Shown here: piece by piece, positions 51,722 to 55,154 of the stretch
How the letters are laid out: each line of letters starts with the position of its first letter
Numbering within the stretch: the stretch's first letter is position 1
Source: Herminiimonas arsenicoxydans
GTDB taxonomy: Bacteria > Pseudomonadota > Gammaproteobacteria > Burkholderiales > Burkholderiaceae_D
Direction of reading: 5' to 3'
NCBI GenBank assembly: GCA_000026125.1
Contig: CU207211.1
Location: 992,001-1,056,000 of the forward strand
DNA: 64,000 nt
Translations under genes and position numbers: made by a program
The notes under the pieces: model-generated
Told to the model about the DNA's origin: nothing
The model's database searches: none
The model's input: the letters and a program-made list of their open reading frames with translations, nothing else

Positions 51722-53383
51722 CTAGGCGGCTAAGGCAATGTCGCGATTGACTGCGCTCAATACGGCGCGCAGCGAAGCGGTCACGATGTTGCCGTCTATA
51801 CCGACGCCAAAGCGGGTGCTTCCATTATTCACGCGCAGTTCGACATAGCTGGCGGCATTGGCATTGGCGCCGGCACCGATTGCATGTTCGTGAAAGTCCA
51901 TCAGCCTGATATCCATGCCCAATGCATTGATGAAGGCGTCGATAGGCCCGTTGCCTGCACCCTGCAATGTGACCGGTTTGCCGTCCTTCTCCAGTTCGAC
52001 CCGGATGCGTACTTCGGCGTTGCCCTGTGATTCATCAATATGGTGGCTGCGATATTGATAAGGCGTCACGGCATTCAAATACTCATTGTTGAAAATCGTG
52101 TGGATATCGTTGGCCGCCACTTCGCCGCCGGTCTCGTCGGTGATGCGCTGCACGGCACGGCTGAATTCGATTTGCAGGCGGCGCGGCAATACCAGGCCGT
52201 ATTCCTGTTCCAGCAAATAAGTCATGCCGCCTTTGCCCGACTGGCTGTTGACGCGAATGACCGCATCGTAGCTGCGCCCCAGATCGGCCGGATCGACGGG
52301 CATGTACGGCACTTCCCAGATCGCGTCAGGCTGCTGCTGGGCAAAACCCTTCTTGATGGCATCCTGATGCGAACCGGAGAATGCGGTGTAGACCAGATCG
52401 CCGACATACGGATGGCGCGGATGTACAGGAATCTGGTTGCATTCCTCCACGCATTGACGGACTGCATCGATATCCGAAAAATCAAGTCCGGGGCTGATGC
52501 CTTGTGAGTAAAGATTCAGGGCCAGTGTGACCAGATCGACGTTGCCGGTGCGTTCGCCATTGCCGAACAGGCAGCCTTCGACACGATCGGCGCCTGCCAT
52601 CACAGCCAGTTCCGCCGCCGCTACCGCGCAGCCCCTGTCGTTGTGCGGATGCACGCTGATCAGGATGGAGTCGCGGCGTGCGAGATTGCGATGCATCCAT
52701 TCGACCTGATCGGCATACACATTGGGTGTGCTGGCTTCCACCGTGCCGGGCAGATTGAAGATCATCTTGCGTTCCGGTGTCGGTTGCCAGGTGGCAGAAA
52801 CCGCATCGCATATTTCCTTGGAAAATTCGAGCTCGGTCATGCTGAATGCTTCCGGCGAATACTGGAATACCCATTCCGTTTCCGGATGCGCATCGGTCAG
52901 TTCGCGTACCAGTTTGGCACCGGCCACAGCCAAGGCCTTCACCTCGTCGCGCGACATATTGAAGACGATGCGACGGAACGCAGGGGCAGTGGCGTTATAC
53001 AGATGAATGATGGCGCGGCGAGCACCGACTACCGATTCGACGGTGCGGCGGATCAGGTCTTCGCGTGCCGGCGTCAGCACTTCGATCGTCACGTCGTCAG
53101 GAATGCGCTTTTCTTCTATCAGGCGTCGGACGAAATCAAAATCGGTTTGCGATGCGGAGGGGAAGGCGACTTCGATTTCCTTCAAGCCTATCTTCACCAG
53201 CATGTCGAAAAAACGCAGTTTCTTGTCGTGGTTCATCGGCTCGATCAGCGACTGATTGCCGTCGCGCAGATCGGTGCTCATCCAGATCGGTGCCTTGCTG
53301 ATGACTTGATTCGGCCAATTGCGGTCGGTGAGACGCACGGGTGGGAAGGCGCGGTATTTCTGTTCCGGGTTGGACAACATCAT
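51722..53383 (-). CDS. leuA: 2-isopropylmalate synthase
   Basis: LeuA condenses acetyl-CoA with 2-oxoisovalerate, the first step of leucine synthesis. The 553-residue protein is of the longer LeuA2 type. The HMGL-like catalytic domain has [36 protein letters not shown] in parts and [13 protein letters not shown]. The C-terminal regulatory domain ([13 protein letters not shown] [16 protein letters not shown]) should bind leucine for feedback inhibition. I chose ATG 53383 (or the adjacent 53380), since an AAGGA lies just upstream. The frame extends to 53449 but nothing there resembles LeuA. The upstream DNA holds two leucine-rich peptide frames and a promoter. Confidence 0.95.
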
Positions 53384-53455
53384 GATGGTTTTTCCTTGCT
53401 TGCTGAATAGGGGAGATTCGGTGTGGCGGAAGGCTACCTGACTTGCCACGCAACG

Positions 53456-53560
53456 CTAGGCCAGATAACCGATCGGTAGCAGTAGCAGAGCGCGAGCATG
53501 GGCGATCGCGGCGGACAATACGCCGGCGTTCAATGTTGCAGGAATGGCCTTGATATGCAT
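53456..53560 (-). CDS. Putative leuA leader peptide 2 (34 residues, Leu-rich end)
   Basis: The frame starts with ATG at 53560 and ends with TAG at 53456-53458, 72 bases before leuA. The last part reads ARALLLLPIGYLA, with four consecutive Leu codons (CTG CTA CTG CTA) near the stop. Such runs just before a stop are the hallmark of leucine attenuator peptides. A weak AAGG lies before the ATG. It overlaps no other gene. Confidence 0.6.
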   Translation of the reverse strand: MHIKAIPATLNAGVLSAAIAHARALLLLPIGYLA

Positions 53561-53633
53561 TTTCTGGGTGAAACCTTGGTTTGGATAGTGCGCCGGTAGA
53601 CAGGGAGCCGGCAGGAACAGCAGTGCGCGACGA

Positions 53634-53720
53634 TCAGTTTAGTCGTAGCGATAGCAGTAGCGCTGCTAGCAGGGAGCCGGCAGCGTACGAAATGCGGGAA
53701 TGAAATGGCGTAGCAGTCAT
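53634..53720 (-). CDS. Putative leuA leader peptide 1 (28 residues, Leu-rich end)
   Basis: ATG at 53720 and TGA at 53634-53636 enclose a peptide whose end reads GSLLAALLLSLRLN. Seven of its last twelve codons are Leu, and five of those seven are CTA, which is rare in this GC-rich DNA. The ATG falls about seven bases after the predicted -10 box, so the peptide may be translated from a leaderless or near-leaderless transcript. Confidence 0.6.
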   Translation of the reverse strand: MTATPFHSRISYAAGSLLAALLLSLRLN

Positions 53721-53726
53721 GCAGCT

Positions 53727-53756
53727 ACTTTAGGCGATGGCGGCGACGCTTGTCAA
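53727..53756 (-). promoter_or_regulatory. Probable sigma-70 promoter of the leuA leader
   Basis: On the minus strand a perfect TTGACA (53756-53751) and TAAAGT (53732-53727, four of six matches) are separated by 18 bases. Transcription would start close to 53720, the ATG of leader peptide 1. Confidence 0.6.
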
Positions 53757-54041: not shown

Positions 54042-55154
54042 ATGTCTATTTCAACTACTCAAGAAATCGTTGCAGAATTGCGTGCCGGCCGTATGGTCAT
54101 ACTGGTCGATGAAGAGGATCGTGAAAACGAAGGCGATCTGGTACTGGCGGCCGAGTTCGTGACGCCGGAAGCCATCAATTTCATGGCCAAATTCGGTCGC
54201 GGCCTGGTCTGCCTGACGCTGACGGAAGAGCATTGCGATCAGCTTGCGCTGTCGATGATGACGTCGCGTAACGGTACCTCGTACGGTACCAATTTCACTG
54301 TGTCGATAGAAGCGGCAGAGGGCGTGACGACCGGCATTTCTGCCGCCGACCGCGCCAAGACCATACAAGTTGCGGTGGCCAGGAACGCCAAGCCATCCGA
54401 CATCGTGCAGCCTGGTCACATCTTCCCGTTGAAGGCGCAAAAGGGCGGCGTCCTGATGCGCGCCGGTCATACCGAAGCCGGCTGTGATTTTGCAGAACTG
54501 GCCGGTTTGGTGCCGGCCGCCGTGATCTGCGAAATCATGAAGGATGACGGCACCATGGCGCGTCTGCCGGATTTGATCGAATTTGCAAAAGAACATGATT
54601 TGAAGATAGGCACCATTGCCGACCTGATTCACTATCGCAGCCAGCACGAAAGCATTGTCGATCGCGTGGACGAGCGCACGATGGAAACGGTGTACGGCAC
54701 CTTCCACGCCGTGTTGTATCGCGACAAGCCTAGTGGTGGCGCACATCTGGCGCTGGTGCATGGCGATATTGCGCCGGATCAGGAAACGCTGGTGCGTGTG
54801 CATCAACCGGTTTCCATACTCGATTTGCTGGACACGCGCGCCACGACGCATTCATGGAACATGGCGTCGGCGATTGCAGCCATCAGGCAGGTCGAGCGCG
54901 GTGTGATGGTGCTGCTCAATTGCGAAGAGTCGGCCGAAGAATTGTTTTCGCAGTTTGCGGCGCTGACGCATCCGGATACGCGTCCGCAGCAGCGCGCGGC
55001 GCGCATGGATTTGCGTAACTACGGTATCGGCGCCCAAATTCTGAAAGACCTGTCGGTCGGCAAAATGAAACTGCTCGCCAATCCGCGCAAAATGCCGTCG
55101 ATGACGGGTTTCAATCTGGAAGTAACCGGATATCGGGCGACGCCGGAAAGCTGA
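54042..55154 (+). CDS. ribB: 3,4-dihydroxy-2-butanone 4-phosphate synthase with degenerate GTP cyclohydrolase II domain
   Basis: The N-terminal domain (about residues 1-200) makes dihydroxybutanone phosphate from ribulose 5-phosphate. It has the acidic motif [17 protein letters not shown] and the histidine region [10 protein letters not shown]. The C-terminal part (about 205-365) is like GTP cyclohydrolase II ([35 protein letters not shown]), but the cysteine cluster that binds zinc is missing: the stretch after [15 protein letters not shown] has no Cys. It should therefore supply only the butanone branch of riboflavin synthesis, and is often annotated ribBA. It leads the ribB-ribH-nusB group. 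Confidence 0.92.

Follow-up and report, generated by a model that had tools for sequence, protein, structure and literature searches.

A putative leucine-responsive leader with two translated frames and a conserved RNA fold upstream of leuA in Herminiimonas arsenicoxydans

In the leu attenuator of enterobacteria, Leu codons are placed in a leader peptide that precedes the leucine genes. The tna leader of Escherichia coli is a Rho-dependent attenuator with a leader frame and a C-rich leader but no terminator, and trpL of Sinorhizobium meliloti encodes an attenuator peptide that is leaderless. In Actinobacteria, leuA is preceded by the LEU element which, in the excerpts of its description consulted here, combines a frame containing a Leu run with a pseudoknot and with a base stem that pairs the Leu run to the Shine–Dalgarno (SD) site of leuA (Seliverstov et al. 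2005, PMC1262725). The same excerpts state that the effects of Leu-codon changes in the leuA leader of Streptomyces coelicolor do not fit classical attenuation, and they cite tna-type Rho-dependent attenuators as an analogy for the LEU element (PMC1262725).

The window analysed here, a stretch of 64,000 nucleotides of the H. arsenicoxydans genome, carries a leuA encoding a 2-isopropylmalate synthase of the long (PRK03739 / leuA_yeast) type, the product of which matches NF002991 with 904.7 bits (cut-off 455) and TIGR00970 with 809 bits (cut-off 697.4). A second relative of this enzyme family (G000:C1:1260899-1262374) lies outside the window and scores under the long-type cut-off. An earlier sequence-only reading had pointed to two short minus-strand frames before leuA, and both are present: 53720..53634 (MTATPFHSRISYAAGSLLAALLLSLRLN) and 53560..53456 (MHIKAIPATLNAGVLSAAIAHARALLLLPIGYLA), here called uORF1 and uORF2. 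Its count of 14 Leu codons, seven of them CTA, was also correct, with five of the seven CTA codons in uORF1 and two in uORF2. Two features had escaped it, namely a promoter predicted to place +1 on the first ATG, and the incorporation of uORF2 into a covarying RNA with helices in pseudoknot order, the conserved part of which reaches 53423, past the end of uORF2. In the direction of transcription the features are as follows:

53727..53756, minus strand: promoter TTGACA-18-TAAAGT (-35 at 53756-53751, -10 at 53732-53727)
53634..53720, minus strand: uORF1, predicted leaderless, 28 codons, 7 Leu (5 CTA)
53561..53633, minus strand: spacer between uORF1 and uORF2, C-rich, without consistent structure
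53456..53560, minus strand: uORF2, 34 codons, 7 Leu (2 CTA)
53477..53479, minus strand: final CTA codon of uORF2, two codons (6 nt) 5' of helix a
53460..53470, minus strand: helix a, 5' arm GGTTATCTGGC, within uORF2
53456..53458, minus strand: uORF2 stop TAG, separating helix a from helix b
53445..53449, minus strand: helix b, 5' arm GTGGC
53432..53442, minus strand: helix a', 3' arm GTCAGGTAGCC
53423..53427, minus strand: helix b', 3' arm GCCAC
51722..53383, minus strand: leuA, 2-isopropylmalate synthase, long type

This arrangement differs from the enterobacterial leu leader in having no intrinsic terminator, two frames and a predicted leaderless start. With tna it shares a leader frame, the lack of a terminator and, judged by overall C excess, perhaps a C-rich leader, but it differs in possessing a conserved RNA fold. 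uORF1 resembles trpL as a frame at the (predicted) 5' end of the mRNA, although trpL concerns another amino acid and is a single frame. The likeness to the LEU element, as far as the consulted excerpts of PMC1262725 describe it, extends to the position before leuA, a frame with a Leu run, pseudoknot-ordered helices in or after the frame and the lack of a terminator. The base stem between the Leu run and the leuA SD site sets the two apart, since such pairing was not found in the tandem Burkholderiales leaders and is suggestive in a group with uORF1 only (family f37); moreover, those excerpts mention no tandem second frame, whereas the window leader has two (PMC1262725). The LEU element and the window leader thus look alike in logic, and it is the SD stem that speaks against common membership. 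If the parallel is true, the LEU element, unexplained since 2005 according to the same excerpts (PMC1262725), would become testable in a laboratory Gram-negative. The earlier statement that no example had been described in this group holds in part: no description of the leader in Burkholderiales was found in a search of the open-access literature, with subscription papers mostly outside it, and the actinobacterial element qualifies the claim.

Promoters set +1 at a canonical distance from the -10 element. Because the sigma-70-like promoter TTGACA-18-TAAAGT stops six bases 5' of the first ATG, the canonical +1 coincides with the A of the uORF1 start codon (53720), and a leaderless start is predicted for uORF1 from this promoter spacing. 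A promoter scan found one site against 0.6 expected in shuffles; the combined pattern TTGACA-N17/18-TANANT-N5/7-ATG has a single occurrence in the 3.42 Mb genome (3,424,307 bases). Among 275 leuA upstream regions, 191 contain a Leu-rich frame with a promoter 5-9 nt 5' of its ATG, the gap being 6 nt in 147 and 7 nt in 30 (177 together), although the finder demands at least three Leu in the final 14 residues and a few calls may be chance. These 191 regions yield 142 distinct peptides, with a Leu share of 27.7% that is inflated by the Leu requirement of the finder. The finder does not inflate the share of CTA, which amounts to 51% of the Leu codons in the uORF1 peptides compared with 2.3% of the 1542 Leu codons in window ORFs of at least 300 aa (ATG-started ORFs called mechanically, a few of which may be spurious), in agreement with the rarity that had been ascribed to this codon. 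Over related pairs, which are not independent of one another, N/S of uORF1 is 0.72 of neutral, and its Leu codons were unchanged in 1754 instances, replaced by another Leu codon in 159 and by another residue in 148. No covarying hairpin around the end of uORF1 was consistent across seven genus-level alignments.

A 14-base block, CTGCCGGCTCCCTG, does occur twice in the window leader, in uORF1 (53683-53670) and in the spacer (53614-53601), and an exact repeat of this length appeared in none of 300 mononucleotide shuffles. The proposal drawn from it, that the leader arose by duplication, finds no support in the comparisons: the repeat is not conserved, and the two peptides differ in their ends and in their company, as uORF2 belongs to a structured RNA and uORF1 does not. 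Because the longest exact leader repeat in six near relatives reaches only 7-10 nt, the repeat is local to the window genome.

A DNA-level comparison with 60 relatives found the stretch from approximately 53491 to 53419 conserved in 25 of them, a count that includes the own genome. The alignments show uORF2 entering a GGTTGCCTGGC-type sequence (a), which is followed by GTGGC (b), GTCAGGCAGCC (a') and GCCAC (b'); the order a-b-a'-b' of these two helices is that of a pseudoknot. Alignment A1, for which 14 loci failed automatic placing, was brought from 91 distinct elements to 51 and, with eight left out for long loops or misplacement, to 43 sequences. In these, a:a' and b:b' are paired in 98.0% of cells, and 9 of the 16 base pairs have varied on either side; slid-partner controls gave pairing of at most 58.2%, a control that flatters the structure as it was derived from the same sequences. 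RNAalifold recovered helix a:a' unprompted. Helix b:b', which occurs in variants such as GTGGC/GCCAC, GCGAC/GTCGC and CTGGC/GCCAG, is Watson-Crick in 28 of 34 hits of model R1 as against 7.9 (sd 2.2, maximum 13) with shuffled downstream sequence; the model encodes only the a:a' pairing yet contains the b and b' bases, so that this test is not fully independent, and with G-U pairs allowed (34 of 34 versus 27.2 in the control) it does not discriminate. The window element on its own folds unremarkably, with a z of -1.25 and 29 of 200 shuffles equally good. An 11-bp helix a, with mostly 3-6 nt between a' and b', would be tight for a complete pseudoknot. The stretch from a' to b' is far longer than usual in L330, L335 and L149, and in the first two it apparently holds a small hairpin of its own. 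Upstream of the helix, N/S of uORF2 is 0.33 of neutral over related pairs, which again are not independent.

Of 141 distinct sequences, 129 carry a Leu codon two codons 5' of helix a. The remaining 12 read TCT at this position and have a shrunken, re-made uORF2 of the type seen in Herbaspirillum, where the frame ATGCCGCCTCTGGCTCTATGA stops directly 5' of the helix. At L029, L063, L070, L072, L074, L075 and other loci of the Herbaspirillum type, uORF2 apparently consists of six codons, MPPLAL, and abuts helix a. In a more divergent set that partly overlaps the first, Leu stands two codons before helix a in all 32 sequences (CTA in 22, CTG in nine, CTT in one). Among 131 sequences, the uORF2 stop follows the CCG at a distance of 18 or 24 nt in 112 and of 9 nt in five; within the window's family it falls in or just after helix a. 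As given in the part of PMC4833913 consulted, a bacterial ribosome covers approximately 12 nt 3' of the codon on which it is working; with such a footprint, a ribosome waiting at the Leu codon would reach the edge of helix a, and one at the stop would cover it. The fixed two-codon distance from Leu to helix amounts to a testable geometric rule.

We propose that this region is probably a leucine-responsive leader of the leuA mRNA, gated by ribosomes and equipped with two translated sensors. The proposal is based on sequence, that is on the conserved frames, Leu codons, spacing, helices and promoter spacing; from these we infer both stalling and the direction of control. That the leader senses Leu-tRNA is very likely, and gating of the RNA fold by ribosome position is reasonably likely. 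uORF1 would start with what is predicted to be the first nucleotide of the mRNA and end in a Leu run made up mostly of the rare CTA. When charged tRNA-Leu is scarce, a ribosome would pause once its A site holds the last Leu codon, with its front edge at helix a, and the a:a'/b:b' RNA could form. With ample leucine, the ribosome would pass through helix a to the stop and hold this helix open. The state of the a:a'/b:b' RNA would in turn set the expression of leuA.

Several other explanations can be set against this scheme. Transcription attenuation by an intrinsic terminator in the style of the enterobacterial leu operon would suit a Leu-codon leader that precedes a leucine gene, but is barely credible here: terminator-like sites occur at 0.145 per leader in 138 leaders compared with 0.133 in Markov-shuffled sequence, none lies in the window leader (minus strand 53720 to 53383), where the sequence-only reading had likewise seen no terminator hairpin, and no Rfam Leu leader matches. 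A search of Rfam 15 left the whole leader without a match, all window hits up to E 5 lying outside it, and in 17 loci no known RNA family reached its gathering threshold. Translational attenuation, as proposed for the LEU element, would have the Leu run or nearby leader sequence pair with the leuA SD site until a stalled ribosome frees it. The consensus fold of six uORF1-only f37 leaders does pair the Leu run with the SD site, in duplexes of -11.9 to -19.7 kcal/mol. These are L171, L176, L177, L181, L282 and L283, and their pairing is not significant against permutation. We nevertheless consider this explanation unlikely, as in 117 tandem leaders the pairing of the Leu runs with the leuA start of the same locus did not exceed that with leuA starts from other loci (z +1.76 for uORF1 and -1.43 for uORF2), and 26 leaders scored as uORF1-only, a few of which carry the element, gave a z of -0.62. 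Pairing of a' or of the uORF1 flank with the leuA start did not go beyond permutation either (n=117; z +0.81 for a', all values between -1.43 and +1.76), and in a model without pseudoknots the accessibility of the SD site was the same whether the ribosome stood on the Leu codon (0.502) or on the stop (0.487), over 131 sequences.

The RNA might alternatively bind a metabolite or a protein, with the frames incidental or secondary. Its structure is strongly conserved, and a helicase has been suggested to act together with the LEU element in the excerpts consulted (PMC1262725); however, uORF2 is under coding constraint and, in the sequence sets analysed, the Leu codon before helix a varies only among Leu codons, save in the 12 sequences with a re-made uORF2, which makes this reading improbable. 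Yet another function of uORF2 would be to supply ribosomes to leuA through frameshift fusion or coupled reinitiation. In families f20 and f21, uORF2 continues across the helices. In four of the five sequences (L329, L330, L334 and L335) its stop and the start codon of leuA overlap; in L332 uORF2 is in frame with leuA. The overlap suggests coupling in these leaders and would misfit a simple rule by which stalling equals expression. As a general account, such a supply of ribosomes is very improbable: among 142 sequences uORF2 occurs in all three frames with respect to leuA (54/48/40), no more than 40 of the 142 have a leuA frame without stops as far upstream as the element, and in the window's family the distance between element and leuA is large and varies. 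Frameshift fusion in particular was rejected on the mixed frames and the mostly closed leuA frame.

Because neither a terminator nor a sequestered SD site is conserved, Rho is the first guess for the output step of the ribosome-gated leader, and a tentative one reached by elimination: Rho-dependent termination would act in the C-rich leader and be blocked in the stalled state. The C excess of the leader (C-G 0.134) is reached by 0.16% of 1274 window pieces; its best C-rich stretch of 78 nt is ordinary, being matched by 14.6% of window pieces, and among 53 named relatives only 25 have a C-rich peak in the leader that is higher than any in leuA as a whole. The most specific version of the proposal, which we regard as possible and rather doubtful, is of a Burkholderiales class that couples a leaderless first sensor to a second one with a pseudoknot docking at the entry of the ribosome precisely when the A site holds the last Leu codon, that uses neither terminator nor hidden SD site and that came with the long leuA, either through descent or through convergence with the LEU element. 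If the ribosome-gated leader is right, leuA in many Betaproteobacteria would be run, without a terminator, by an RNA fold that is read through the position of one ribosome.

Strict finders applied to 130 leuA upstream regions of the window's family (130 of 144 matches; those omitted were partial, were second copies or, in some cases, were divergent) scored both parts in 104, uORF1 only in 13, the element only in one and neither in 12, and six of the 13 scored as uORF1-only (L006, L013, L070, L088, L119 and L138) show the element in alignments. The named relatives of the window genome are Oxalobacteraceae; the 80 named loci are the best 80 of 454 and overlap the family set. In other families of the order (65 of 79 matches used), the finder reported a uORF1-like frame in 20 of 65 regions, two of them of a fused type. 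The upstream-region comparison recommended in the earlier reading shows frames and Leu codons to be kept in the window's family and partly beyond it, and a chance origin of the leader features is ruled out by conservation. In f4 one frame carries the element. A single long frame also accompanies the element in Cupriavidus campinensis and in C. metallidurans, strain CH34 of the latter being of the element-only type. L126, L127 and L129 have the predicted leaderless uORF1 only, the uORF2 element being apparently missing. Natural variants with uORF1 only, with the element only or with a shrunken uORF2 offer ready-made dissections of the leader.

Run over 399 genomes of the order, model R1 gave 32 matches in 31 of them, with a single match in the own genome, and 31 of the 32 lie before leuA. 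A LeuA signature is found downstream in 29 of 30 loci, one more match stands before a second leuA and L180 was placed by coordinates alone. At L327 (1501-1573) the element precedes a gene other than leuA, OsmC-like by eye, and appears to be an orphan whose leuA was lost or has moved. Two actinobacterial records have the frames MLRGLLLSCRGGGL and MQFGLLLLSCRDESSD before leuA; R1 matches no leader in these two records, and the MQFGLLLLSCRDESSD frame, by eye, enters the arm of a perfect 11-nt hairpin. Upstream of the leader, at 54139-54242 on the minus strand and antisense within ribBA, there is a sub-threshold match to the Vibrio RNA AS9 (39.8 bits, gathering threshold 50), which is probably due to chance or coding similarity.
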